Shown here: in pieces, positions 1-14,094 of the stretch
Layout of the letters: the number at the start of each line of letters is the position of its first letter
Position numbering within the stretch: the first letter of the stretch is position 1
Source: Anaerolineae bacterium
GTDB taxonomy: Bacteria > Chloroflexota > Anaerolineae > 4572-78 > J111
NCBI GenBank assembly: GCA_016931895.1
Contig: JAFGDY010000039.1
Coordinates: 1 to 42,643, forward strand
Reading direction: 5' to 3'
DNA length: 42,643 nt
Translations under genes and position numbers: made by a program
Notes under the pieces: generated by a model
Seen by the model: the letters and a program-made list of their open reading frames with translations, nothing else
Database searches by the model: none
What the model was told of the DNA's origin: nothing

Positions 1-200
1 ACTTCCTCACTGACGCCCAGCGAATACATATCGGCGGTGTCAAAAAAGTTGATGCCTAACTCCAGCGCCCGTTTGATAAAAGCACGGCTGTCTTCTTCCG
101 CTAGCACCCAGTCACGCCATTGGGGTGTGCCGTAAGTCATAGTGCCTAAACAAATCCGCGATACCTTGAGGCCGGTGCGGCCCAAATTGATATATTCCAT
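1..200 (-). CDS. Aldo/keto reductase, N-terminal part (cut by window edge)
   Basis: Only the first 66 or so codons are inside the window; the gene continues beyond base 1. Translation on the minus strand gives an N-terminus with the [10 protein letters not shown] opening and the later [11 protein letters not shown] stretch. These are the first beta strand and the Asp/Tyr active-site region typical of aldo/keto reductases, NADPH-dependent enzymes that reduce carbonyl compounds in the cytoplasm. The start is the ATG at 198-200, preceded on the minus strand by a strong AGGAGG ribosome-binding site ending 6 nt upstream. A weak possible promoter (TTGTAC, 18 nt, CATATT) lies further upstream. The substrate cannot be told from this fragment. 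Confidence 0.9.
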
Positions 201-268
201 TATTTGCCTCCTGAATTTTTAATATGGGGTTCTATGGCTAGAGGGTACAAGCTTTTGGAAAGAGAGTC

Positions 269-313
269 AAAAATGTGGCGCAGATTCATACGATCTCAAC
301 GTGAATCTGCGCC
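269..313 (-). terminator. Possible terminator after the VirB4-N-like gene
   Basis: A perfect 12-bp inverted repeat (277-288 with 302-313, GGCGCAGATTCA and its complement) has a 13-nt loop. On the minus strand it is followed after three bases by five T residues. It lies 200 bp downstream of the stop at 518, so it could end the zinc-ribbon/SPFH/VirB4-N-like transcript. The U-tract is short, so it may instead be a simple hairpin. Confidence 0.45.
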
Positions 314-415
314 TCAGACAGAACAAAGGCGTCAGCATGCGGTGTATTCTTGATTTCCGACTATCCTGTGAAGCAAAATTGAGATTGGTGATTTTTGATT
401 TCTGGTTGAGATAGG

Positions 416-492
416 GCTTACGCAAATCATTAATGCGTCCAGAGGTGACAGACACCTTGTAAATGACGGTCACCTCTGGAACTTGCGTAAGC
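416..492. repeat. MITE-like nested palindrome with 10-bp terminal inverted repeats
   Basis: The ends GCTTACGCAA (416-425) and TTGCGTAAGC (483-492) are perfect inverted repeats. Inside them a 12-bp inverted repeat pairs 438-449 with 469-480 (TCCAGAGGTGAC and its complement). A second, alternative small hairpin (AGGTG at 443-447 with CACCT at 453-457) can also form. The whole 77 bp can fold on itself and holds no convincing gene. This resembles a miniature inverted-repeat element moved by a transposase elsewhere. I see no clear target-site duplication, so mobility is inference. It sits at the left border of the AT-rich signalling block. The rest of 201-517 holds only the hairpin at 277-313 and the upstream region of the aldo/keto reductase. 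Confidence 0.65.
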
Positions 493-517
493 TTAAGATT
501 TATTTCATTCTTCATTC

Positions 518-1645
518 TCACTCCCGTTGATGTCCTAAGGAAACATCAGGGAAACCACCTTCTGGGGGTATTGGAATGCGGAAGATTGCCTGCGCTTGTT
601 TGGCACTGACTGCGTATCGTAATCGCCGTAAGGGTAAACCAACCAAATCAGTGCCCCAATAATATTGACTGAGTTGTATCAGATTAATTTTGGCGGTAGA
701 GAGTTCATTGGGAGATAAGGCCCAGTCTAAATTGTAGTTTGCTCCTGGCGTTTCATTCTCTGTTTGGAGTGAAGGTAAGCATAAACCAACACCTATGGCG
801 TTGGCCAGGCCATGCGGCACAATAGGTTCGCCGATGAGGGCTATGCGGAGGGTAAAGGGATGGGGAGTTTGGTATAGCAATTGGTGATAGAATTTGAGCG
901 CCGAAGTGAGTTCAGTCTTCAGATTTCCCGGCAGATTCCCCTTGTCCCCTACAACTTCCAATTCATTCAAATAGACATAATCTCCCTGGTCCCATAGGAT
1001 CGGCATCAGGCTGACACTTAACATCAGGCGTTGGGGGTATCTGGCCAGAGCACACCAAACCTGTTCCATACTTTGCAGATTCCATCGCCAACCGTAGTTG
1101 AGATAAAGCAGCTCAATTGTATTGTCGTTATTGGCCTTAGACGCCACTCGTTCAAAGTGTCTGATTTCAACAATCTGGTGGGGATTTTTGAGGCCGGTAA
1201 TCCACTCGGATTGGTAGGCTCGTTCAAAGTCCGTCTGGTTAGATAGGGAACGTAAAGCAAAGTCAAAAGGAAAGAGAGCAAACACATCTTGGGCCAGGGT
1301 GATAGCTTCGGTACGGGCCTGGTCGGGGGTGGGCGCAAAAGCCTTACCCATAAAAAATATATCTATCTGGGTTTGATTTGTTGCAGAAGAGATAAGGCGT
1401 AATTCAAAGACAGGGCTGCTGTTGGACTCAATATTGGGCAGATGTAAACACTCAATCAGCCGGATCTGCCGTTCCCACGCCTCCATAAGATGACCGGCCA
1501 TCATTGGATTCCAGGCCCGTTGCCGAAACTCGGTAAAAGGACAAGGGGATATTTCAAAAGCAAAGAGCGCATGATAACCTGATGCTGCTTCTATTTTTTG
1601 ACATTTTTGTGGTACCAGATGGACATACAAATCCATATTGATCAC
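518..1645 (-). CDS. Protein resembling the N-terminal domain of VirB4/HerA-type ATPases, without ATPase domain
   Basis: 375 residues, soluble, no signal peptide or membrane segment. I do not recognise a named family with certainty. The overall look (a long alpha/beta region, then LPLRRLRYAVSAKQAQAIFRIP followed by a Pro/Gly-rich loop near the C-terminus) resembles the region just before the P-loop in VirB4/TraC and HerA-like conjugation or helicase ATPases. In those proteins a similar '..A..LFRLP..G.LPG' junction leads into the ATPase. Here the protein stops at that point and no Walker A or B motif follows, so it would be a stand-alone accessory domain. The start is an ATG 22 bp after the SPFH stop codon, so the two are probably co-transcribed and may act together. 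Role unknown; the family assignment is inference. Confidence 0.85.
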   Translation of the reverse strand: MINMDLYVHLVPQKCQKIEAASGYHALFAFEISPCPFTEFRQRAWNPMMAGHLMEAWERQIRLIECLHLPNIESNSSPVFELRLISSATNQTQIDIFFMGKAFAPTPDQARTEAITLAQDVFALFPFDFALRSLSNQTDFERAYQSEWITGLKNPHQIVEIRHFERVASKANNDNTIELLYLNYGWRWNLQSMEQVWCALARYPQRLMLSVSLMPILWDQGDYVYLNELEVVGDKGNLPGNLKTELTSALKFYHQLLYQTPHPFTLRIALIGEPIVPHGLANAIGVGLCLPSLQTENETPGANYNLDWALSPNELSTAKINLIQLSQYYWGTDLVGLPLRRLRYAVSAKQAQAIFRIPIPPEGGFPDVSLGHQRE

Positions 1646-1667
1646 TCCTTAACCGGTTTTTATGGCC

Positions 1668-2768
1668 TCATAATGAGTGTTTGCCATGACCATTGGTGGG
1701 GGCTGAGACAGGCGTTGGTTGTGGTTCAATCAAATGGTCAATCATCTTGCTTAAAGTTTGTTCATGACCATTCGGGTTGTTGGTTTGGGCATAAAGACCG
1801 TTGGAAACAAGCAAATGGCGCGGGTCTCCCCAAGCGGTTATGGCTCGACTGAGGGCATCTATTCGGGCCAGGGTTTGCTCATGAACCAGACGCATTTCCT
1901 CCATCTGTCGTTGAAAATCACGTTGAGTGCTCTCTAACTTAAAGACAAGCGCCTGTCTTTTGGCCTCATCCAGGGCAACCTTTTGGCGGGTTGAAGTAGC
2001 CAACCGTTCAGTTTCAGCCTGGAATAAGGTGAGTTCGCGTTTATTTTCGGCCTGTTGCTGGTGAATTTGGAGGGTTGCCTTTTCGGCGATAAGTTGTTGT
2101 TCAGCCAAAACCTCTTTAGTAGTCAAGGTCAGGTAAGTAGGGTCGCCCTCGGTTTTGATGATTTTGAGACTCAAAATTCGTAATCCGTTTAGAGCTTCTT
2201 CGGTATGCAAGGACTGGCGAATTTGACGTTCCAGGGCCATTTTATTGGTCAATTCCGTAGAGTTTGCTCCGCCAAATAACAAACAATGGGGCAGCTTCTC
2301 TATCACCTGGCGAACTGTACTTTCCACAATTGTGGTCAGGGTTTGGGTAGGCGACTTAAGCTGAATCACAGCTTGGGGATTATCCACCTTAAATTCCACA
2401 TCAACTTGCAGCGAAATTCGAGCCAGGTCCCCGGTATAAAGACCCCTCAGCTCAATCACGCGGCTATGTTGGGACATATCTACCAGCCGACCATCCAACC
2501 GGCCGGCCGGACAGTGACGCAGGCTATACACGCCAGGCCAAAAGGTATGGCAGAAACCGCGACGCCCCCAGATAATCACACAAGAAGCATCAGGCACAAC
2601 CAATTGACCACCCCAGCCAAAAAAGCTGCGAGGCAAGATAAAACGTTCAGCATACAAATCCCCATTAGCCGGTTCAGGATGGTACGCAGGGCCGCTCAAC
2701 AGATCTAGAAGCGTGTTTATTGCCTCAGATATTAACGATTCTTGACAAATATCCGCATTGTTCTTCAT
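1668..2768 (-). CDS. SPFH/band-7 domain protein with coiled coil
   Basis: 366 residues. An SPFH/band-7 (prohibitin/stomatin-like) domain covers roughly residues 45-225, with the typical run of beta strands, then IVESTVRQVIEKLP and LNGLRILSLKIIK. A charged alanine/glutamine-rich coiled coil follows at about 220-310, and then a variable tail. SPFH proteins form ring or cage oligomers, usually at membranes, and scaffold partners. Unlike stomatins, this one has no clear N-terminal membrane helix, so it may be cytoplasmic or peripherally attached. It lies 51 bp after the zinc-ribbon gene and 22 bp before the VirB4-N-like gene, suggesting a three-gene unit. SPFH proteins coupled to zinc ribbons are known in bacteria. 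Function in this setting is not known. Confidence 0.9.
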   Translation of the reverse strand: MKNNADICQESLISEAINTLLDLLSGPAYHPEPANGDLYAERFILPRSFFGWGGQLVVPDASCVIIWGRRGFCHTFWPGVYSLRHCPAGRLDGRLVDMSQHSRVIELRGLYTGDLARISLQVDVEFKVDNPQAVIQLKSPTQTLTTIVESTVRQVIEKLPHCLLFGGANSTELTNKMALERQIRQSLHTEEALNGLRILSLKIIKTEGDPTYLTLTTKEVLAEQQLIAEKATLQIHQQQAENKRELTLFQAETERLATSTRQKVALDEAKRQALVFKLESTQRDFQRQMEEMRLVHEQTLARIDALSRAITAWGDPRHLLVSNGLYAQTNNPNGHEQTLSKMIDHLIEPQPTPVSAPTNGHGKHSL

Positions 2769-2819
2769 TTTTATAGCCCTCCTGCTATCAAACCGTCAAA
2801 CGGTTTTGGTAATGCTTAT

Positions 2820-3023
2820 CTAACAGTACCCATTTTGTATCTCGGCCAGTTTGACTGCATCAACATGTAGGGTGCAATGAGGGCATTTGTGTCTGAGCCA
2901 ATTTCCCCCACGGCACCTTTGACAAAAGAATCTAAAACATTTTGGGCATTTATAAACCCTGATCCTATGAAAGAGTGAGTTGTGTCCACAATTTGGACAA
3001 TGATCAAAAATATCACGAGACAT
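2820..3023 (-). CDS. Small zinc-ribbon/RING-like protein
   Basis: 67 residues with four Cys pairs in the order CPNC, CPKC, CQRC, CPHC, plus several His, consistent with two zinc sites in a zinc-ribbon or RING-like fold. Such modules bind protein or nucleic acid partners, and this small protein has no other domain. The ATG at 3021-3023 is preferred because GGAGGT lies 8 nt upstream on the minus strand. A GTG two codons earlier would overlap the spacing region. A second open frame over the same bases lacks the cysteine pattern and is rejected. It is the first gene of the SPFH trio, with a TATAAT at 3069-3074 and a regulated-looking region further upstream. Likely partner: the SPFH protein. Confidence 0.85.
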   Translation of the reverse strand: MSRDIFDHCPNCGHNSLFHRIRVYKCPKCFRFFCQRCRGGNWLRHKCPHCTLHVDAVKLAEIQNGYC

Positions 3024-3080
3024 AGCCACCTACCTCCATATCTTTATGATTTTTTCATCCTTACCCCAATTATAGCCAAT

Positions 3081-3110
3081 AAAAAAAGCCGGCTATATTA
3101 AAACCGGCTT
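3081..3110 (-). terminator. Rho-independent terminator or attenuator
   Basis: On the minus strand AAGCCGG (3110-3104) pairs with CCGGCTT (3092-3086) over an 11-nt loop and runs into seven T residues. It ends the transcript from the response-regulator gene stopping at 3217. It lies just 3' of a possible promoter at 3126-3131, so it could also act as an early attenuator for the SPFH trio. Confidence 0.85.
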
Positions 3111-3125
3111 GCAGCAAACTTACAA

Positions 3126-3203
3126 TTTATAATTAAATACTACCGTTATCTGATATGAAATTGCACCTATCTAATATGAAACAAACATTAATCTGATTTT
3201 CTA
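3126..3203 (-). promoter_or_regulatory. Tandem direct repeats and -10 box: candidate OmpR-type operator/promoter
   Basis: On the minus strand the 14-mers at 3181-3168 and 3160-3147 (TTTCATATYAGATA) differ at one base and are 21 bp apart, two helical turns. A weaker third copy (ATCAGA at 3196-3191) lies about 22 bp further upstream. The proximal repeat covers the place of a -35 box for TATAAA at 3131-3126, with a 17-bp spacing. This is the layout of promoters activated by OmpR/PhoB-family regulators, which bind head-to-tail repeats. The gene just upstream encodes such a regulator. Binding is inference. Confidence 0.5.
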
Positions 3204-3216
3204 ATAAATCTTGCTT

Positions 3217-5172
3217 TTACTCAATTTGTAAACGATATCCCTGACCTTTGACCATAAGCAGATAACGTGGATTATCGGGGTTAGGTTCAATGCGAAGGCG
3301 CAGCCTTCTCACTAAGGCATTGATACGACCATCCAATTGGTAGTCTCCTGCCTCGTATTTTTCATCAAACACAGTCTCTACAATTTCTTCTCGCCCCACC
3401 AATTTGCCAGGCTGTTGATACAGGCAGCGGAATAATTTTAGCTCTTGCCCAAACAACTCAATTTTATTATTCCCCAGCCATACTACTTCATCCTCATCAA
3501 AACGTAATTTGCCGCCAGGTGAGGGAGAGTCAAATGGCTCATGTAACCGATGGGCCAGCATGCCGGCCGCCAGAAGTAGATGCGCCCCCCGTATTCGTTC
3601 GACCTGCGTAAAGATTTTGTTGGGGTCATGATGGAGAATAATTCCGATGACCCATACCAATAGACCGGCATAATAAGGCAACGGATCATAGTGACCAATT
3701 TCGCCATAGGCGCTCCGTCGAATTTGGCCAATGAGAACCAGGCTCTTTCTTAAGTCGGCAACCACCTCTCGTTCAGGCAATGGCCCATCGAGCCGACTTG
3801 GTTTCACCAGACATTCTTCAAGATCTTGCCAGGCTATCAAGTCAGGAGCTTGACTCAGTTCAAAGCGGACGATCGCCTCCAAACACACAAAATCCCACCA
3901 ATTGGGCATATATCCTGCGTATGCAAAATCAGTCAACCAAGTTTGTCGTCCGTAAATATCCACCAAGATATTATCGGCAGTAATTTGACCCGGCGAAGTT
4001 TTACACACAATTGGCCGGTCATACTCTATAGGGGTGTAGATGGTGGCAATAGGATTAGGACAAATTAGGGTCGCTTGACTGGATAAGTGAAAAACCAAAG
4101 ATTGGTCGGTATATTCCACTTCAATGGCATTCAACGGCCTTACCGCTTGTACAAGAGCGGCTAACCTATGTTCTACTTCAAGGCGGGAGGCTGGCTCTTC
4201 CAACCCAATCCGCCCACGATATAACAACATTAAATCATTAGTGACAATACGCTGCCCTTGCTGGTGCCACGTTGCCAAAACTTCGATAACGTGATCAAAA
4301 GCTACTTTAAGCGGTCGTTCCTTACTTCCCCCAAATAATTGTCGTAGAGATTGAATTGCCTCCAGGTTGGTTGTGGGTAAAACATAAGTTGCTGCGCCAA
4401 AATGGACTGACCTGGTCATTTTGAATTTAGCACCTTGAAATGTGTCGGGAGCCAAATTCAGCAGATGTTCTACTTCTCGCTCCAGCTGGTTACGTTCGCC
4501 GCAGAGCAAAATACGCGGGTCCAGTACGCCTTGTGGCGATTGGGCCAAAACCGGCAGACAGAAGCGCTGCCTATCATGCCAAAAGAGTGTCCCCACTCTG
4601 ATCTGCCGGTAATCGTGGAATAGCTGGCGAAAGAGATCCTTCAATTCGTCAGCTCGATGCAGGAGGGTCTCGGTTAGAGGATCTGGCTGTAATAAACCTA
4701 CAAGGTATAGAAATAAACCTTCTCGATGGTCCGACTGAATATCTAAATCTGTATTCAGACGAACATATTTGGCGATAGCCTGTTCCACGGCTTGGATCAT
4801 GATTTGGGGGCCTTCTTGTTTAGAACGGAAATCTATGGCCGGCGGTAAGCCATCTATTGCCGGCCCCAGCGCCTCACGTACATCCTGATAAGAGGGGAAA
4901 TTTGTAAGAATGATTTTGGGTATCAATTCATAGGTGGAATCTTTAGCTACCGTCAAACCTGTAGTGTCTTTCTCGTCGTCATCGTTAACCAGGCGAATAT
5001 CCAAAATAGCCAAATGGATGTGAGCTGTAACCAGCAGGTGTCGGGCCTGCTCCGGCGTATGCGCCTTGATCACTCGATAACCGGCCTCCTCTAAAAATTC
5101 GGCCCGGGTTTCCAGAAAATCAGGATCATTATCAACTAAAAGAATCGAATAAGGTCTCCTCTCGGTACTCAC
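3217..5172 (-). CDS. Response regulator with phosphotransferase-like middle domain and OmpR-type DNA-binding domain
   Basis: 651 residues. Residues 8-135 are a receiver (acidic D14/D16, phospho-acceptor D58, T90, K118). Residues 555-650 are an OmpR/PhoB winged helix. The long middle part (about 190-545) has a segment, residues 393-416, that lines up with the catalytic loop and metal site of aminoglycoside-phosphotransferase or kinase-like folds. N401 and the Asp of TDF (D415) are kept, but the catalytic Asp position carries Gln396 and the usual HGD reads PGQ, so it is probably inactive. It resembles the 'ternary complex associated' kinase-like domains described in bacterial conflict and signalling proteins; this is from memory, not a search. 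The GTG start has AGGAG 7 nt upstream. It probably takes phosphate from the neighbouring kinases and may act at the repeats at 3147-3203. Confidence 0.9.
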   Translation of the reverse strand: MSTERRPYSILLVDNDPDFLETRAEFLEEAGYRVIKAHTPEQARHLLVTAHIHLAILDIRLVNDDDEKDTTGLTVAKDSTYELIPKIILTNFPSYQDVREALGPAIDGLPPAIDFRSKQEGPQIMIQAVEQAIAKYVRLNTDLDIQSDHREGLFLYLVGLLQPDPLTETLLHRADELKDLFRQLFHDYRQIRVGTLFWHDRQRFCLPVLAQSPQGVLDPRILLCGERNQLEREVEHLLNLAPDTFQGAKFKMTRSVHFGAATYVLPTTNLEAIQSLRQLFGGSKERPLKVAFDHVIEVLATWHQQGQRIVTNDLMLLYRGRIGLEEPASRLEVEHRLAALVQAVRPLNAIEVEYTDQSLVFHLSSQATLICPNPIATIYTPIEYDRPIVCKTSPGQITADNILVDIYGRQTWLTDFAYAGYMPNWWDFVCLEAIVRFELSQAPDLIAWQDLEECLVKPSRLDGPLPEREVVADLRKSLVLIGQIRRSAYGEIGHYDPLPYYAGLLVWVIGIILHHDPNKIFTQVERIRGAHLLLAAGMLAHRLHEPFDSPSPGGKLRFDEDEVVWLGNNKIELFGQELKLFRCLYQQPGKLVGREEIVETVFDEKYEAGDYQLDGRINALVRRLRLRIEPNPDNPRYLLMVKGQGYRLQIE

Positions 5173-5287
5173 TGCTCAACTCCTATTGATGGCTAAATCT
5201 ATTCCCCCAGTTCGGGAAGACTGAGGGGGGTAAACTATTTCCATTGCGCAAGTCATATCCATTCAGTGACAGCCTGAAGATAAACGC

Positions 5288-5668
5288 CTATTGAGATTGA
5301 GCAGGGGAGGAGATATCCAAGGCTGCCTTAATTTTGGAAAGAAGTTCGTCTTGGTCAAATGATTTGCGAATATAGTCAGTTGCTCCGGCCAAAAGTACTT
5401 CTCTGGCTCTTTGCCAGGTGGGAGAAGCTGTGACAACAATAATATGGGACGCGGGTTGCATTTTGCGCAAATTGGATACTAATTGCGCCACATTATCAAC
5501 TGCCCCTGCATCTATAATAATTGCGGTGTACTCTTGCTCAATACCTTGCTGTTCTGCCTGTTTTTCTGAAATTACTTGTAATGTTCCCAGAGACAATACA
5601 CTTTGTTCTAAAACTAAGGGCCACAGTGTTTCAGTTTTCTCGCCAATTAATAAAAAATGGTGTCCCAT
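5288..5668 (-). CDS. Single-domain degenerate receiver protein
   Basis: 126 residues with the CheY-like alternation of strands and helices. D53 in IIIDAG sits at the phospho-acceptor position, T80 in VVTAS at the switch Thr/Ser and K102 in RKSFD at the conserved Lys. The acidic pair after strand 1 that binds Mg2+ is missing: LLIGEKTE offers only one Glu. Phosphorylation may therefore be weak or absent, and the protein could be a phosphate-independent partner of the kinases. The ATG start has AAGG 8 nt upstream. It lies 31 bp after the giant kinase and 115 bp before the response regulator gene, so it probably belongs to the same transcript. A GC-rich imperfect hairpin at about 5203-5229 lies in the gap after it. 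Confidence 0.85.
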   Translation of the reverse strand: MGHHFLLIGEKTETLWPLVLEQSVLSLGTLQVISEKQAEQQGIEQEYTAIIIDAGAVDNVAQLVSNLRKMQPASHIIVVTASPTWQRAREVLLAGATDYIRKSFDQDELLSKIKAALDISSPAQSQ

Positions 5669-5699
5669 AAAGTAAACCTTATCTTGTGACCGATGGATT

Positions 5700-8600
5700 C
5701 TACTGTTTCTTCACGGGCAACCAGATAACCATCTTGGTGCCCTTTGGCCCTGTAACGGCCACTCGTACTTCGCCGCCATAAGTCTGAACAATCGTCTGAA
5801 CCATCAATAAACCCATCCCTAACCCTTTAGCTTCATCAGGTTTCTGAATCGGCTCGTATCCAATTTTGTCTCTAAGCTCCTGAGGAATTCCTGAACCGGT
5901 GTCAGAAACGGATATTTCAACTCCGGCGTTGGTCAATTGGGTGCCAATAATAATCTCTTGTATTTTACACCCATCTACAGCTTTTACCGCATTGTCTACC
6001 AAAATATCAAATGCTCGGCGCAACCATTCAGGACTCAACCATAAGGTCAGGTGAGCCGGAAGCTGAAGATCAAAACAAAGTACAGTTTTTTTATAGGGGT
6101 CATTTTGCCATAGTTGTTTGGCTCGCTCACTGACCAACTCGTTGATTGAAACTAATTCCATTCCGGCTTCAGTAGACAGGGGAGGGGTAATAGGCTTTTT
6201 CAGAATTTGCGCGGCCAAACGTTCAATTGTGGCGGCTCGTTTACTGATTTTGGTTTGTTCAGAGTGAGAGGATAGCTGCTTAAAATCGCGGTGCAACAAC
6301 TGGGCCTGTTCCTGGATGGTTAAAGCATGTTTTTCTATTGTGTGTCGCCAGGCGCTACTGGTCATGCCCATCCAGGCCACCGCAGTTCGCGCTCCTACCA
6401 GCCCTTTCGTCCGGCGCAAATCTTCATTTGTTTGTTTGAGTTGTTCATATAACCGTGCATTTTCAATCACCGCCGCGGCCTGACCGGCAAAAATACGCAA
6501 GAGCCGAGCATCATCTTCGTTAAAAGGCATTCCATCTAATTTATTAGAGGCCTGAATAATGCCTATATTCCGCCGACCTACGACCAGCTTTACCAGCAAG
6601 GTGTCCCGCAAACCGGCTTCTTTGATAAGATCATTCAACCCCAATGCAGTTACCAAAGGGTCTCCTTCTGCTTCGTTGAGAATCAAATGAGGCATTGTCT
6701 CCCATAAGGTGGCAAGATCATCCTTGTCCAGGGGGATGTGATATTTTTGACCAAGCGCATCGGGGACACCATACAATGGCAACTGGCAAACCAGCTTCCT
6801 CTCCACCTCATCATAAAGGAGGATAGCGCACATCTGAACATTTGTTAATTCTGCGATACTCTCGTTTACTCGCTGATATACTTCTTGAATGTCAGTTAAC
6901 GAACTGATTGTTTGCGAAATTCTATGCAGACCGGAAAGTTCCTTGTTTCGCTGCTGTTCGGCCTGGTACAGCCGCGCATTCTCAATGGCGATGGCGAGTT
7001 GGTCGGCCATTGTTTGCAAAATGGCAATGTCTTCTTGAGAGAAGGCGGCTTCTTTAACACTCTGTACCGTTAAGGCGCCAATACACTGATCTCGGCTGAT
7101 GAGCGGCAGAGACAACTCGGAACGAGTTTTGGGTAAGTAGGGGTTATCAAAATGAACATCATCCTTATCAACATCGGGCGCAATGCGCGCTTGCCTATGG
7201 GCTGCACTCCAGCCCACCATCGAATGACCCCCGATGGGTAATTTATGCTTTTCTTTGAGCATTTTTTGACCAGCTTCATCCGTACCCGCCCGCAACACCA
7301 GGTATTCACCCGTCTCATCCGTCAGGAATAACCCAACATAATACACATTGAATCTCTGGCGAATAAGATTAACCGCCTGGCTGATTAGCACGTCGGGATC
7401 AAGAATGGTACTGGTTGACTTGGAGACTTCGGCCACAGTTTGCAGTTGCATCCGGCGGTGTGACATATCGGCCAACAGGCGAGCATTGCTAATGGCAATA
7501 GCCGCCTGGTAAGAGAAAAGCTCGATGTTATTGAGTTCCTCACCGGTAAAACGATGGTGCGAGCGATAATTGATGAACATGACCCCCACTTTTTGTGAAC
7601 CAACCTTGAGGAGAATACTGACTGATGACTTGATACCTTCCCGTTGCACAAAAACGCCGCCAACAATGGGGTCGGATGACGCATCTTCAGCGATATAGGG
7701 TTTATCCAATGCCAAAATATTTCGCACTACCGACTCTCTTACCACTGAGCCTATCTTGAGGACTTCTTCCTCATTATGCACGCCAAACATCGTTGGCGGA
7801 AACCCAAATTCATCCCGGGTTTGATCATAAGTGTAGAGCGTAACGGCGTCACACTGAAGGGCCTCGTAGGTACCTTTGACAATGGAATGAAGCGTACTCT
7901 GTAGGTTTTCCAGTACGCTCACTCTGGCTACAATTTTTGCCGTATCTCGCGTGCGGCTCACTTGTTCTAGTAACCTGGCCTTTTTAAGAGTAAGAGCGGC
8001 GTGGTTGGCAAAGGTTTCCAGGGTTATTTTATCTTCACGGCCAAAGGTGCGAGGTAGTTTGTAATTTACGTATAAGACGCCCAAGGTTTCCTGGCCCACC
8101 TGTAGAGAAATCCCTTGAAAAGCCCGTACCCCAATGGTGCCGCGCAAGCCGTGCCCAATTGGGCCAAGAAAAGCATACTCCGGATCATCAGTGTTGGATA
8201 TAGCCACGTATTTTCGTTCCATCACCACTTCAGCCGTACCGCCTGAACGTGGTTCATCTTTTCTGAACCGTTCTACAAGCTTGGGCCGGATGCCTTCAGT
8301 AATCAATTCGTCGGGCAGAAAGGTATGGCGAATATCGTCATAAGACCAGATCACGACAGAATCGGCTTCCAAGACCTCTTTGGCGCTCTTTACCACCTGT
8401 TGCAAAACTTCTTGCACACTCGCTACACTGGCCAACTTCTCGGCAGCCTGATGAAGGTGCTCCAGTTCACGCATCCGACGGGTGTTGTCATAGGCAATCG
8501 CGGCCTGGTTTGCGTAAAGCCGCAGGGCTTCCGTCTCGGTTGGTAGAAAGATGCGGGGAACACGATAATGAATCCACATCACCCCAATATTGCAGTCGCG

Positions 8601-11600
8601 CACCCCAAATGGCACGCACGCTGCCGCCCTAACCCCATCGCTCAACATGACTGGATTGACTCTATCGGGAAGTTTTTGGACATCTTCTGTGTACCAGGGT
8701 TCTCCCGAAGTCATCACCTGCACCGAAATCCCATCAGGCCTGATCATCTCACCCGTATCCAGACCGTCACCAAAACCAACGGCCACTAAATCAGTTAGCT
8801 CCCCTTTGCGCGAGATCAGGATTATTTTAGACCGCCATCCAGCTAAAGCCTGGCAAGCTTCCTCAACAACAATCCGCAGGGTTTGCTTTGGCTCCATAGC
8901 CGAGATGATGGCGCTACCCGCTTCATATAAAGAGCGAAGTTGTTTGAGTCCCTTTTGAATCTCTTCAAAGTACTGCGCATTAGTTACAGCAATAGCCACT
9001 TGATCGGCAAAAGTAGCGAGCAATTCCAGATCATCGGCTTGAAATACACCGGCTACATCCAGGTTATCCAAAGACAAGGTGCCGATTATCCGCCCTCGAA
9101 CGTTGAGCGGCACACATACCATAGATTTGTGCAACGGCACCTCTGGATGATTGAACCGTTTGTAACGAGGATCCTGGTGTGCATCTGCCACCACTGTGGG
9201 TTGGCGATGTTGGAACACCCAGCCCGCAATGCCTTCGCCAGACCTTAGGCTGAGGGCATCAATGACCTTTGGGCTGTAGCCAAACGTGTTGGCCCGCAAC
9301 CACAAAGTATCAGTTAACTCATCATAGAGATAAAGGGTGCCGCGTTGCGCCATAGGAAAAGCTTCCACAGTCAAACTAACAATTCGCTCCAATACTTCAT
9401 CCAGTTCCAAAACGCCGGTAATGACCTGGCTAACCTGGATGAGGGCGCGCAATCGTTCCTCCAATAGAGTCACCTGGCGCAAGTCACGAATATATCCGGC
9501 CTGTCCAATAGAACGGCCATCTTTATCTCTGATCAACGTACCGGAAAGCAAAGCCGGGATGCGAGAGCCGTCTCGATGTTTAAAATCTACATGCCAACCC
9601 TTAACACTCTCTCCCCGGTTTACTGCCTCAAAGATTTCCTGAGCCTTTTCCACATCCAGGTATAGCCGCGCTGCAGTTTTGTTAATTACCTCTCCCGATG
9701 CCCATCCTAACATTTCTTCGGCCCGCTGGTTAAATATGTTAATCTTTTTATTTTGGTCAATAGCTATCACGGCATCATTAGCATTTTCAACCAGGGCCTC
9801 GCGCCAGTTTTTGGCCTTAACCATTTCCGAAAACAAGCGGGCATTCTCTACTGCAACTGCAACGTGAGCGGCAAATACACGGCAAAGTTCAACTTCCTCT
9901 GTCGAGAACCGGCGCAAATGGCCGACCGCATCAAGGCTAAAAGAACCTAATAATTCGTTGTTTTTGGATATTACCGGGATAATGAGGAGAGATTGAATAT
10001 CAAAATTCAATAGAATATCCCGGACCACGCCCATGGATTCGGCGGCATTGACCTGTTCAATAATAAGGGGCTGGCGGGTTTTTATAAGTTGCTCCTCAGC
10101 CGGTATATCTTTTATGGGGATATTCGTATTCACAATGCCCAATTCCGGGTATTCCGCTGTTACGCAGCCTTGCGTGTAATCCAAGTCAAAAAGAACCAGG
10201 CCGCTATGGTCGGCGCTGAAAAATTCAACGGCATCCTGACAGGCGCTCTTTAGCACCTCGTTTAGGTCTAATGATGAGTTAATCGTTAAAGCTAAATTTT
10301 GTAACGTTTCCAAATTTCGGGCCCGATGGTTAGCCTCTTCAAACAGTCGCCCGTTCTCAATGGCCAGAGCGGCCTGGGTGGCAAAAGCTCGGGCCAGCCG
10401 GGCATGCTCTTCTATGTAAAAATTTGGTTGATGTTTGTCTAGCGTGATCATTCCAATAAGTTGGTCCCCAACCAACATGGGCACTCCCAACCAGCTACGG
10501 ATGCCGGCTTGAACATGAGGTTCTTTTAAGAATACTTCATATTCGGCAGGCGCATTTGAAACAATAAAACATTCTCGGCGGCGAACCACCTCTCGATTAG
10601 GATTCTTCTCGCCATTCACCAGAAACGAAAGCCCCACAATTTCAGGCAGATTAGGAAACCCACAGCCACCAATAATCTCGAGCCGATCTCCTTTTAGCAA
10701 TTGGACTGAGGCGCTATCATAAGGCACTACCCTCTGTAGTTCTGTCAGAATTCGTTCAAAAATCTCCCCTGGTTTCAGGGAGGTTGTCAGCACTAAGGCC
10801 GTTTCTCGTAAAGTTTCAGCCTCCTGGCGACGTTGAGCTTCAGCTTCAAACAAGCGGGTGTTTTCTAAAGCAATAGCAGCCTGATCGGCCAATAATTTTA
10901 ATACCCGCTGTTCATATATCCCAAAGGCCTCACGATGGGTGCTATAGGCATATAATACCCCTTGGTTCCCTGTTTCACCAGGGATGGGCACGCCAATAAA
11001 AGACTTCACCCCAGCCTGAAGTAGCTGCTCGTCTAATATTTCATCAGCCTGGGTCTCTACGTCGGCCAGATTATATAACTCACCGGTTTGAATGATTTGC
11101 CGGGTCAGTAGGGTATTTTTGAGATGGCGTTTCCATTTTATCGTTGCCTGACCGATAAGACTGCCAGAGTCATATTGCACCTGGTTTATCGTAGGATTCA
11201 TCAAGACGACTGAACAGGATTCTGCGCCAACCAATCTGGATACAGCCTCAACAATTACCTCTAATGTCCTGGCCAGGTCCAAGCCACTCACCATGGTATT
11301 AGTAATCTTTAAGATTGTTGAGAGTAAGTCCCGTTCCTGGCGTAGACGGGTTTGTTCTGCAGCCAGGCGAATAGTTATCCCCAACTCGTCAAGATTTAAG
11401 GGTTTGGTCAGGTAACGATAGGCTCCTGCTTGCAAAGCAACCAAGGCTCGATCCATGCCCCAGCCGGTAAAGACAATACATTCTGTATCAGGATAAACTT
11501 CCTTGATTTTTTGCATTAATTCGATGCCACTCGGTTCTGGGTCAATCTCTGGCGCCGGTATGAGCAAGTCATCAATCAAGGCCACATCGTAAGCTCGTTT

Positions 11601-11747
11601 AGCCGCGCAAACTCGTTGCCAGGCTTCCTCTCCATTTGCGGCCGTATCTACCTGATAGTGATACTTGTCTCGAAGACGTTTTGCCAATGGTTCGCGTAAG
11701 CTGCTCTCATCTTCCACCAGTAACACTCTTAACAAGGCGTCTTTCAT
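5700..11747 (-). CDS. Giant receiver/nine-GAF/PAS/HATPase hybrid sensor protein
   Basis: 2015 residues from the preferred ATG at 11745-11747, which has AGAGG upstream; a TTG 16 codons earlier has no such site. Order by eye: receiver (about 5-140, with DD in LIDDLL, FTGW and LTKP), GAF1 (145-300), GAF2 (310-470), GAF3 (480-640), PAS (650-765), GAF4 to GAF9 (about 770 to 1760), helical linker and HATPase_c (about 1890-2010). Each GAF ends in an A-[IV]-x-N-x-[RQ]-like signalling helix. The HATPase has N (DNAVKA), G1 (DTGSGIP) and G2 (GLGMGL) boxes, so it should bind ATP. The dimerisation helix lacks a usual H-E-x-x-N/P box; the nearest His is in AWRHTI. Cytoplasmic, with no membrane helices. It lies 52 bp after the S1-kinase gene. 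Likely an integrator of several small-molecule or redox signals; ligands unknown. Confidence 0.93.
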   Translation of the reverse strand: MKDALLRVLLVEDESSLREPLAKRLRDKYHYQVDTAANGEEAWQRVCAAKRAYDVALIDDLLIPAPEIDPEPSGIELMQKIKEVYPDTECIVFTGWGMDRALVALQAGAYRYLTKPLNLDELGITIRLAAEQTRLRQERDLLSTILKITNTMVSGLDLARTLEVIVEAVSRLVGAESCSVVLMNPTINQVQYDSGSLIGQATIKWKRHLKNTLLTRQIIQTGELYNLADVETQADEILDEQLLQAGVKSFIGVPIPGETGNQGVLYAYSTHREAFGIYEQRVLKLLADQAAIALENTRLFEAEAQRRQEAETLRETALVLTTSLKPGEIFERILTELQRVVPYDSASVQLLKGDRLEIIGGCGFPNLPEIVGLSFLVNGEKNPNREVVRRRECFIVSNAPAEYEVFLKEPHVQAGIRSWLGVPMLVGDQLIGMITLDKHQPNFYIEEHARLARAFATQAALAIENGRLFEEANHRARNLETLQNLALTINSSLDLNEVLKSACQDAVEFFSADHSGLVLFDLDYTQGCVTAEYPELGIVNTNIPIKDIPAEEQLIKTRQPLIIEQVNAAESMGVVRDILLNFDIQSLLIIPVISKNNELLGSFSLDAVGHLRRFSTEEVELCRVFAAHVAVAVENARLFSEMVKAKNWREALVENANDAVIAIDQNKKINIFNQRAEEMLGWASGEVINKTAARLYLDVEKAQEIFEAVNRGESVKGWHVDFKHRDGSRIPALLSGTLIRDKDGRSIGQAGYIRDLRQVTLLEERLRALIQVSQVITGVLELDEVLERIVSLTVEAFPMAQRGTLYLYDELTDTLWLRANTFGYSPKVIDALSLRSGEGIAGWVFQHRQPTVVADAHQDPRYKRFNHPEVPLHKSMVCVPLNVRGRIIGTLSLDNLDVAGVFQADDLELLATFADQVAIAVTNAQYFEEIQKGLKQLRSLYEAGSAIISAMEPKQTLRIVVEEACQALAGWRSKIILISRKGELTDLVAVGFGDGLDTGEMIRPDGISVQVMTSGEPWYTEDVQKLPDRVNPVMLSDGVRAAACVPFGVRDCNIGVMWIHYRVPRIFLPTETEALRLYANQAAIAYDNTRRMRELEHLHQAAEKLASVASVQEVLQQVVKSAKEVLEADSVVIWSYDDIRHTFLPDELITEGIRPKLVERFRKDEPRSGGTAEVVMERKYVAISNTDDPEYAFLGPIGHGLRGTIGVRAFQGISLQVGQETLGVLYVNYKLPRTFGREDKITLETFANHAALTLKKARLLEQVSRTRDTAKIVARVSVLENLQSTLHSIVKGTYEALQCDAVTLYTYDQTRDEFGFPPTMFGVHNEEEVLKIGSVVRESVVRNILALDKPYIAEDASSDPIVGGVFVQREGIKSSVSILLKVGSQKVGVMFINYRSHHRFTGEELNNIELFSYQAAIAISNARLLADMSHRRMQLQTVAEVSKSTSTILDPDVLISQAVNLIRQRFNVYYVGLFLTDETGEYLVLRAGTDEAGQKMLKEKHKLPIGGHSMVGWSAAHRQARIAPDVDKDDVHFDNPYLPKTRSELSLPLISRDQCIGALTVQSVKEAAFSQEDIAILQTMADQLAIAIENARLYQAEQQRNKELSGLHRISQTISSLTDIQEVYQRVNESIAELTNVQMCAILLYDEVERKLVCQLPLYGVPDALGQKYHIPLDKDDLATLWETMPHLILNEAEGDPLVTALGLNDLIKEAGLRDTLLVKLVVGRRNIGIIQASNKLDGMPFNEDDARLLRIFAGQAAAVIENARLYEQLKQTNEDLRRTKGLVGARTAVAWMGMTSSAWRHTIEKHALTIQEQAQLLHRDFKQLSSHSEQTKISKRAATIERLAAQILKKPITPPLSTEAGMELVSINELVSERAKQLWQNDPYKKTVLCFDLQLPAHLTLWLSPEWLRRAFDILVDNAVKAVDGCKIQEIIIGTQLTNAGVEISVSDTGSGIPQELRDKIGYEPIQKPDEAKGLGMGLLMVQTIVQTYGGEVRVAVTGPKGTKMVIWLPVKKQ

Positions 11748-11799
11748 TTCGCTATGCCTCTTGATGGTGCATATTCTACGTAATCGCTTCAACAAACCT

Positions 11800-14094
11800 T
11801 TATGAACTCTGTGGCAGTTCTACCCGGAAGGTAGTACCCATTGGAATAATGCTTTCCTCAACTACAATCCCCCCACCCATGGACTCTACCAAGCTTCGCG
11901 CAATGAATAATCCCAGCCCTGTCCCGCCAGGTCGGCTTGAAAAACCAAGAGCAAAGATGCTTTCCCAAAGTTGGCTATGAATGCCAGGGCCAACGTCGGT
12001 AAACCTTATCCTAACGGGACATTCTTTGTTTGTTTCCCAATTAGTGGTAATAAACAATACTCGTTGACCATCAGGCCACTGTTCCGTTTTCCGGGCAATC
12101 TGTTGGATTGCATTAAGTATCAGATTAGTAAATATCTGTTGTAAGCGCACTATACCACCCTTGACCGTAGGTAAATCTAAAGTAAGTTCAGTTTTGACCC
12201 GTACCCGGTAGTGGTGAATAGTAGGGCGCAACAATTTCACCGTTCGTTGCACTACCTCATTAACATTTACCTCTTCTTCGTATTCAGTTCGCATCAATTC
12301 TCTAAAAAGCTCTACCGTGCTTTTTAGATCCAGGGTTACTTTTAACAATTGGTCAGTAGTGTTTTCCAACTCAGTTACGCTGAAAGAATCTGTAGACCCT
12401 CCTTGTTGCCAACTCGCGCAGTCCGCTCGTAAGTTACGAAGCTGGATTTCTAAACCCGAAATTTTGTTATATACCTCATGGCTAAATCCAGCGGCCAATT
12501 GGCCACTCAAAAGGAGAGGATTAACAGCCTCAATACGCTGTTCTAAGGCTTGACTTTCCAGGGCGACACTAAATAATAGGGCCATTGCCCGGGCATCTCG
12601 CAGGCGATAACGAGCAAAAGCATTTGCAGTACGGTGGAATAAGAAGAGGGCATGGTGCACCTCGCCACCCGCCGAAATGGGTACGCCCAAACACGACTCA
12701 AAGACCACCAGGTCTAACAGCTTATCAAATCGGCGCATCGCTTGCTGTGAGACACAGGCTTCGAAAATATCACCCCGTTCACAAATCACGTCTTTTACGG
12801 GACTCTCTCCCAAAGCATAGATTGCTTCCTGATCCAAGGGCAAGTGTCCAACTTGGACCACAATTGATATCTGTTGCGAATCTGGGGCCAGATAAAAAAT
12901 CAAACCCTGTTCAGCCTGAGTAAACCGAACCAACTCTCGCAAACCGGCCTCAAAACGAAGCGGAAGAGGCAACCCGCTATGCATTGTCCCTGTTAGTTGC
13001 TGAAATACATTGGGCGATTCTTTAGGTTTTACCTTTGAGGTTGACTTCCAAAAGTTAGATATTTGGCCTTGTCTCAACAGAATGAATGATTCGTAAATTT
13101 CTTCTAAGTTCAAGGGTTTAGCAAAAATATCGCTGATGCCCAATGCCTCCAACTCTTCACTCCGTTGGGCAATCCATTCTGGGATGCTCATGACAGCCAC
13201 CTTAGTATTTGGCGCTACTTGTACCAGTGTTTTGATAAAGTCTAAACCATCTTTGCCGGATAGGTCCAAATCAATTAAAGCTACGCCGTATGTTCGCTGA
13301 TATAAGTAGGATAGCGCTTGTTCAACTGATCCAGCTCCTTCGGCAGCAAAGCCCAAGCGGCTTAACCATGCTACCAGAGGCTCTCTTACCTCGTCATGAT
13401 CGTCTACTACCAAGACCCTTCCTATCTTCTCAACCAAACTTGAGTCAACATCTCTTGACCCTACTGTATGAGGGGCAATATCGTCTCTTTCAAAATCACC
13501 CTTTACCCCTTCTCCTTTAATACCTTCTCTTTGGCCCAGAGAATCCAGCATCTGCCCCACCAAGATTTCATGCTTCATCTGTTGCCGAATACTAAGCTTT
13601 ACTCGTCTCTTCTGTTTGTCAAGAAAGGTTATCATTGCCTTCACATGGTCACCAACCCAAAAGAGAGCTTTGGGTTGCTTCACCGACCAGGGCGCCAATT
13701 CGGCCAAAGGAATAAACCCATCTATGCCAGGTACGATTTGGACATATACTCCCCTTGCTGATAGATTCTTAACCGTAGCCGTGATCGTATCCCTCACGTT
13801 GTAGGACCGCAGAAATGTATCCCAGGGATCCGGTTCTGCCCGACGGACACTCAACTCTAAATTTTGATTAGGCGTAGCCAGACCAATAACTAGGCCTTTT
13901 ATTTCGTCCCCTTCTGATACTATCTGATCAGGGTCCAGATTACCAGCCTGGGTCAACTCTCGTCGGCGGATGAAAGCCTGGGTCCCATCCGATAAACGAA
14001 CAAAGACTCCAAAGGGAAAAATTTGTTCAACATGAGCAACAATCATCTGGTTAATTTGATAAACATTATCTTTGTAGTTACTCAACTCTAACAC
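11800..14094 (-). CDS. S1-S1-receiver-GAF-histidine kinase fusion
   Basis: 764 residues. Two S1 OB-fold repeats occupy 14-84 and 99-170 (FPFGVFVRL..QAFIRR and LSARGVYVQI..IDGFIPLAEL, each closing with an LS[VI]R end). A linker follows, then a receiver at 225-345 (D231/D232, D275, K326), a GAF-like domain at about 375-515, a HisKA-like helix with H539 in FSHEVYNKIS, and HATPase_c with N661, G1 DVGPG (700-704) and G2 GTGLGLF. The kinase core looks complete. S1 domains bind RNA in ribosomal protein S1, RNase E and PNPase, so an RNA- or ribosome-linked signal is suggested but not shown. The start is uncertain: the GTG at 14092-14094 opens the frame just ahead of the first S1 repeat but has no clear ribosome-binding site. 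It is first in the transcript and 52 bp before the giant kinase. Confidence 0.92.
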   Translation of the reverse strand: MLELSNYKDNVYQINQMIVAHVEQIFPFGVFVRLSDGTQAFIRRRELTQAGNLDPDQIVSEGDEIKGLVIGLATPNQNLELSVRRAEPDPWDTFLRSYNVRDTITATVKNLSARGVYVQIVPGIDGFIPLAELAPWSVKQPKALFWVGDHVKAMITFLDKQKRRVKLSIRQQMKHEILVGQMLDSLGQREGIKGEGVKGDFERDDIAPHTVGSRDVDSSLVEKIGRVLVVDDHDEVREPLVAWLSRLGFAAEGAGSVEQALSYLYQRTYGVALIDLDLSGKDGLDFIKTLVQVAPNTKVAVMSIPEWIAQRSEELEALGISDIFAKPLNLEEIYESFILLRQGQISNFWKSTSKVKPKESPNVFQQLTGTMHSGLPLPLRFEAGLRELVRFTQAEQGLIFYLAPDSQQISIVVQVGHLPLDQEAIYALGESPVKDVICERGDIFEACVSQQAMRRFDKLLDLVVFESCLGVPISAGGEVHHALFLFHRTANAFARYRLRDARAMALLFSVALESQALEQRIEAVNPLLLSGQLAAGFSHEVYNKISGLEIQLRNLRADCASWQQGGSTDSFSVTELENTTDQLLKVTLDLKSTVELFRELMRTEYEEEVNVNEVVQRTVKLLRPTIHHYRVRVKTELTLDLPTVKGGIVRLQQIFTNLILNAIQQIARKTEQWPDGQRVLFITTNWETNKECPVRIRFTDVGPGIHSQLWESIFALGFSSRPGGTGLGLFIARSLVESMGGGIVVEESIIPMGTTFRVELPQSS

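Follow-up and report, generated by a model that had tools for sequence, protein, structure and literature searches.

VirB4 proteins are known motors, and HerA has a HAS-barrel as its N-terminal domain. Among SPFH proteins, an N-terminal hydrophobic anchor is typical of HflK/C and stomatin but is not universal. TCAD9 is associated with vWA-MoxR-VMAP systems and, in the accessible part of the source, appears in a figure legend on CRISPR-associated proteins (PMC10910872). The accessible part of the account of vWA-associated effectors (PMC7159879) mentions receiver domains, not histidine kinases, and has SPFH in its reference list only. The VirB4 N-terminal domain (N-domain), SPFH, two-component proteins, and TCAD9 are thus known as parts, but a motorless N-domain paired with an SPFH protein, and the operon that holds the pair, were not met in the literature searched. 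Judged by the listing of matches, a search with DUF87 plus SPFH and VirB4 plus SPFH among its themes apparently gave no paper that describes such a pair.

We describe such a pair in a contig from an Anaerolineae bacterium (Chloroflexota). The window, our name for the whole stretch of DNA analyzed, is this entire contig of 42,643 nt (JAFGDY010000039.1, assembly GCA_016931895.1; G000:C39 in our numbering of genomes, G, and contigs, C; loci are numbered L). Open reading frame (ORF) calls with translations support the zinc, SPFH, and N-domain ORFs, all on the minus strand, as real. ORF starts were set mechanically, and some overlaps (to -203) may reflect overlong starts. The features are as follows.

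518 to 1645, minus strand: stand-alone protein with the predicted fold of a VirB4-type N-terminal domain, 375 amino acids (aa), no ATPase domain (AF2, Foldseek, VIA-align, fused relatives)
1668 to 2768, minus strand: SPFH/band-7 protein, 366 aa, no transmembrane (TM) segment, predicted helix of ~105 residues after the SPFH domain (Pfam, AF2, hydropathy)
2820 to 3029, minus strand: small four-CxxC zinc protein, 69 aa, internal ATG at 3023 (sequence; homologue 55% identical in G016)
3086 to 3110, minus strand: terminator-like hairpin and T run between the TCAD-like and zinc genes (consensus match only)
3217 to 5172, minus strand: protein with receiver, TCAD9/APH-like middle, and OmpR-type winged helix, 651 aa (Trans_reg_C 4.1e-13; Response_reg 7.4e-7, just below the cutoff; phmmer match to L062)
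5288 to 5668, minus strand: single receiver-domain protein, 126 aa (Response_reg 2.2e-8; positional counterparts in L154 and L174)
5700 to 11795, minus strand: receiver-multi-GAF/PAS-HATPase hybrid kinase, 2,031 aa (Pfam; homologue of L062 3245-7039, 9e-64)
11800 to 14094, minus strand: S1-S1-receiver-GAF-HATPase kinase, 764 aa (Pfam; homologue of L062 7050-9233, 6e-69)

Pfam, applied to 11 of the 24 window proteins, recognized no P-loop ATPase and no type IV secretion component. Hydropathy was computed for six window proteins, none of which has a TM-like segment. Two inverted repeats lie beyond the N-domain gene, toward the end of the contig, at 438 to 480 (17-nt arms) and 274 to 316 (15-nt arms).

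The 375-aa protein matched no Pfam, PADLOC, or NCBIfam family. Its AF2 model, built from a 20-sequence alignment (pLDDT 83.8; pTM 0.88), aligned over its whole fold with residues 27 to 428 of TrwK/VirB4 (PDB 7o43 and 8rtd), the stretch that precedes the TrwK ATPase; VIA-align gave a Z of 17.9 and an rmsd of 4.1 over 284 residues, with an identity of ~7% over the aligned residues. The family next after TrwK/VirB4 had a Z of 10, and FAD oxidases had a Z of about 5 to 6. All 14 Foldseek matches below 0.001 were R388 type IV secretion entries holding TrwK/VirB4 (best E, 1.6e-6). The predicted fold of the 375-aa protein is that of the VirB4 N-terminal domain. The first-pass annotation had called the protein VirB4/HerA-like and proposed a profile comparison; the fold comparison bears out the VirB4 part, and no HerA N-domain was among the Foldseek and VIA-align matches listed. 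In the profile comparison with PDB sequences nothing scored below 0.15, and the likeness to VirB4 is visible by fold comparison only. Chains of the ESX-3 and ESX-5 core complexes gave a Z of 8 to 10 against the same model, a possible fold link between type VII and type IV scaffolds.

Unlike TrwK, the window protein has no ATPase: a RecA-like P-loop or HerA ATPase domain is absent, the stop codon lies at 518 to 520, and Pfam found no ATPase in it. The sequence continues from 518 down to base 1, and because 517 further bases follow the stop codon, the ORF is not clipped by the contig edge. A search of 61 relatives with the N-domain gave two matches, the window itself and G031. The G031 protein (L004) is a 983-aa open frame in which the N-domain match precedes a P-loop, GSTGSGKT, and a Pfam DUF87/HerA match at 431 to 490. 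The fused protein had matches in 21 of the 298 genomes of the class; the N-domain is thus often the front half of a HerA/VirB4-type ATPase. Since relatives continue from this domain into DUF87/HerA, the window protein ends at the junction where the ATPase would begin, as the first-pass annotation had supposed. It is built like the front half of a VirB4, yet it is not a VirB4 by membership, for which the ATPase is the criterion.

The motorless form is not confined to the window. We found 15 such proteins: that of the window, that of L044 (G081; contig VGOG01000218.1, a Chloroflexi metagenome-assembled genome), and those of 13 of the 120 sampled genomes in the family of G195. Fourteen of these 120 genomes matched the N-domain, 13 with frames of 364 to 430 aa and one, G829, with a frame of 911 aa. 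The ORFs of L044 (410 aa) and L062 (G195; 369 aa) end where the window protein ends. Across the 15 loci, the motorless ORFs have 358 to 410 aa and conserved ends around FR[LIFWY]P, and in most loci the next gene lies within a few bases. Because 13 of the 15 loci come from one family, the loci are not independent. The wider survey had matches in 23 of 396 genomes; those with fetched neighborhoods were read, and G143:C38 (a 302-aa frame) was left out. A second search of the genome contig collection confirmed 1 of 159 stretches, on the same contig as L044; a search of plasmids with the N-domain (tblastn) gave none.

In a tree of 30 rows, the motorless forms all fell on one side of a branch with a support of 91/89, which is under the tool's starred level, and they adjoined fused proteins from SPFH-bearing loci. 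The tree omits L031 (matched stretch of <250 aa), and the tree and the profile scan cover loci with fetched neighborhoods, without short-contig loci such as L008, L013, L020, L035, L040, L042, and L043. The motorless form probably arose once, from a VirB4-like ATPase beside SPFH; we infer the direction, from fused to motorless by loss of the motor.

The SPFH protein of the window matched Pfam Band_7 (E = 1.9e-6, above the gathering score). Its AF2 model (pLDDT 77.5, with a pTM of only 0.50) shows the SPFH domain followed by a helix that spans residues 210 to 314. Among its structural matches are stomatin (4fvg, with a Z of 14.4 and an rmsd of 1.6 over 107 residues), HflK, prohibitin, and flotillin. 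In the SPFH domain and long helix, compared as single-chain models, it is thus like the proteins that form SPFH cages. It differs from them in having no TM segment and in having a VirB4-type domain as its conserved partner. As the first-pass annotation had noticed, a clear membrane anchor is absent: the maximal 19-residue hydropathy is 1.21. The SPFH proteins of the motorless loci likewise have no clear TM segment (maxima, 0.83 to 1.59). Among those of the fused loci, one of the two in L004 (2.17) and that of L056 (3.58) have a TM-like segment. A search with the window SPFH protein in the genome contig collection gave 26 pattern stretches, none confirmed.

SPFH lies directly upstream of the motorless N-domain gene, on the same strand, in 14 of the 14 loci with room for it (the window, L044, L062, L142, and L144 to L153); in the fifteenth, L143, the contig extends only 353 bases upstream, which leaves no room. 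ATPase fusions of this N-domain near SPFH, an arrangement that the first-pass annotation had thought worth seeking elsewhere, were found in the Chloroflexi loci L004 (two SPFH genes), L029, L055, L056, and L057, the last through a Band_7 match below the cutoff (1.3e-4). The N-domain hidden Markov model matched these five with E values of ~1e-101 to 1e-103, all five being inside the profile. L058 looks alike, with SPFH beside a fused N-domain, by visual inspection only. The SPFH profile had no match in ten loci whose N-domains are more distant (L030 to L034, L036, L037, and L059 to L061). The fusion operons are unlike the window in their fused motor, in an extra SPFH C-terminal domain of ~100 aa, and in their neighbors (Hsp70, J/zinc-ribbon, E1, and JAB proteins).

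In the family of G195, the pair stands in an operon of six genes, in the order SPFH, N-domain, S1-receiver-HATPase kinase, receiver-multi-GAF-HATPase kinase, receiver-TCAD9, and AAA NTPase, with most gaps between genes at -4 to 20 bases. The set is complete in 8 of the 13 family loci. Two others reach the contig edge after three genes, L143 has no room for SPFH, L152 has no S1 kinase, and L144 consists of SPFH, N-domain, and AAA only; the S1 kinase is missing from G747 and G081. The window holds the first five gene kinds in another order, with the kinases and the TCAD-like gene upstream of the pair. Two large hybrid histidine kinases and a receiver-TCAD9-like protein accompany the pair both in the window and at most of the 13 family loci, in two gene orders. 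The two-component features of this cassette, HATPase and receiver domains, were recognized by Pfam, and both large window kinases have GHKL (HATPase_c) domains. The window TCAD-like protein aligns with the TCAD9 protein of L062 (phmmer, 9.1e-7); Pfam TCAD9 matched the proteins of L062, L142, and L150, and the window homologue had no TCAD9 match up to an E of 10. Its kinase loop is degenerate (SPGQITADN), and HGDLHxDN is kept in most family loci. Receiver-TCAD9 proteins in the family loci are the likeness to the TCAD9/vWA-MoxR-VMAP systems as these appear in the accessible parts of the two sources (PMC7159879 and PMC10910872). The differences from what those parts hold are the hybrid histidine kinases here and that no vWA, MoxR, or VMAP was recognized among the 11 of 24 window proteins scanned.

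The cassette and the pair also occur apart. Eight genomes have the S1 kinase; six besides the window were fetched, G106 being left out, and in all six loci (L154 to L159) the kinases stand without the pair, as they do in L174. Conversely, L044 has the pair without kinases, beside type III CRISPR genes. At many family loci the neighbors are housekeeping-like (by eye).

The zinc protein has the four CxxC pairs attributed to it (CPNC, CPKC, CQRC, and CPHC), and its gene had matches at E <= 0.01 in 12 of 61 genomes, the window's own included; most were weak. The best other match, in G016 (L174), is 55% identical, and SPFH and the N-domain are absent there. The L174 zinc gene stands after a kinase C terminus, a receiver gene, and a TCAD-like gene, arranged as in the window, and the genes after it resemble those for trigger factor, ClpP, and ClpX (by eye); the S1 kinase of G016 is on another contig. 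Because the homologue follows a two-component cassette that has no SPFH, the zinc gene belongs to the cassette. We therefore rejected zinc, SPFH, and N-domain as one conserved unit: of the three-gene linkage first proposed, SPFH with the N-domain stands and the zinc gene drops out. The hairpin at 3110 to 3086 has the longest stem of seven terminator-like sites in 1 to 5800, where shuffled sequences average 6.7 sites. Since it lies between the TCAD-like and zinc genes, zinc, SPFH, and N-domain may be their own transcription unit; a promoter scan of the minus strand gave no promoter-like sequence from 3029 to 3217.

The two predicted folds, the missing motor, the linkage of SPFH to the N-domain, and the signaling operons in two gene orders suggest that part of a secretion machine has been reused as a cell-signaling scaffold. 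Our most likely reading, which we hold tentatively, is that an SPFH ring and a VirB4-type adaptor serve as a soluble scaffold for signaling. The SPFH protein would most likely assemble into a soluble or peripheral ring or cage through its SPFH domain and long helix. The N-domain would dock there in an adaptor role, the one by which it would hold the ATPase in the fused relatives. In the window and most family loci, the resulting two-protein platform would bring together the cytosolic hybrid kinases and the receiver-TCAD9 output protein. Input sensed by the S1 and GAF domains would alter both the platform and the phosphorelay. The output would be the putatively DNA-binding winged-helix TCAD-like protein in the window, and an active-looking APH-type kinase with the AAA NTPase in the family of G195. 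Against such a scaffold are the occurrence of the pair without kinases and of kinases without the pair, and the terminator-like site between pair and cassette in the window. A bolder form, which we regard as possible if doubtful, is a cytosolic signaling organelle: a ring or cage of anchorless SPFH and motorless VirB4-type protein bearing S1/GAF kinases, together with either a TCAD9-type kinase or a DNA-binding output protein and, at times, an AAA NTPase. If so, a secretion-motor scaffold would have turned into a receptor hub.

The main rival, somewhat unlikely in our estimation, gives the N-domain a different NTPase: SPFH, N-domain, and AAA (TniB/STAND-like) would be the core machine, the kinases would regulate it, and the window's AAA would be encoded elsewhere. 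Every one of the 11 family loci that could be evaluated has the AAA gene with the pair, L144 with its three genes included. Its product is a P-loop protein other than the cognate ATPase, with Walker A GAPSVGKT in L062 507-1583 and weak AAA_22, AAA_16, and TniB matches among the L143 and L150 homologues. The window's genome has three AAA homologues elsewhere, one of which (L163; G000:C157, 155-2169) immediately precedes a gene for a stomatin-like SPFH protein whose N terminus is hydrophobic. However, no AAA gene adjoins the pair in the window or in L044, and one follows the cassette without the pair in L158 and L159, so AAA may belong to the TCAD gene. The first-pass annotation had raised a motor borrowed in trans; for a cognate HerA/VirB4-type ATPase, this now looks improbable. 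The cognate ATPase domain had no match at E <= 1e-5 in 13 of the 15 motorless genomes, which are 94 to 100% complete. The two exceptions are G816 (967 aa) and the window's own genome, in which a distant homologue on C161 (943-aa frame, E 1.6e-38) matches the fused query from residue 330 only and, having a different N-terminal half, does not match the N-domain profile (L028).

Defense is a possible purpose beside the scaffold reading, which we still consider the most likely. That the pair is specifically an accessory module of conflict or defense systems (type III CRISPR or TCAD9-type), anti-phage and not for ordinary stress sensing, we think unlikely. The order RAMP-RAMP-Cas6-SPFH-N-domain on one strand of L044 (3107 to 6288), with 38 bases from Cas6 to SPFH, speaks for it, as do the fused ATPase's match to PADLOC mad8 (4.7e-12) and the tie of the TCAD9 name, in the accessible part of the source, to conflict systems and CRISPR-associated proteins (PMC10910872). 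A literature search for the MADS system gave nothing relevant among the matches listed. Against this purpose, PADLOC had no match for the four window proteins scanned, the CRISPR locus is single beside the many family loci with housekeeping-like neighbors, and no viral relative was found when viral contigs were searched with the fused N-domains (69 stretches, none confirmed). A reading of the gene as the decayed remains of a fused ATPase gene, or as an artifact of assembly, has nothing in its favor beyond the missing domain and is extremely improbable; a truncated pseudogene or artifact is refuted by 15 loci with like lengths, conserved ends, a conserved partner, and a close next gene.

In the motorless form, the docking half of VirB4 has been retained with its own conserved partner and operon, and the motor is gone. 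With the pair, the function of the VirB4 N-domain on its own becomes open to test. The pair also links SPFH proteins to a defined phosphorelay, and the operon ties a TCAD9-type conflict protein to histidine kinases.

The SPFH proteins of L004, L029, L044, and L055 to L058 end in a domain of ~100 aa with a YPxxxP motif, RWD/UBC-like by eye, which is missing from the SPFH proteins of the window and of the family of G195. Pfam gave no support for this identity in L044, L029, or L055; a neighbor gene in L055 (15351 to 17132) has an RWD match below the cutoff (0.0031). In the same locus (G538:C62, 6956 to 14304), the fusion and SPFH lie directly beside E1-like ThiF (5e-35), JAB (2.5e-8), and an E2-like ORF (by eye), which reads as a ubiquitin-like conjugation operon with SPFH and a HerA/VirB4-type motor. 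In L057, L058, and L029, the fused ATPase accompanies SPFH, Hsp70 (4.2e-79 in L057; by eye in the others), and J/zinc-ribbon proteins, and L057 and L058 have a caspase-like ORF (by eye). In L030 to L039, distant N-domain ATPases lie beside zinc-ribbon and secreted-peptidase- or nuclease-toxin-like ORFs (by eye), perhaps an undescribed export system.
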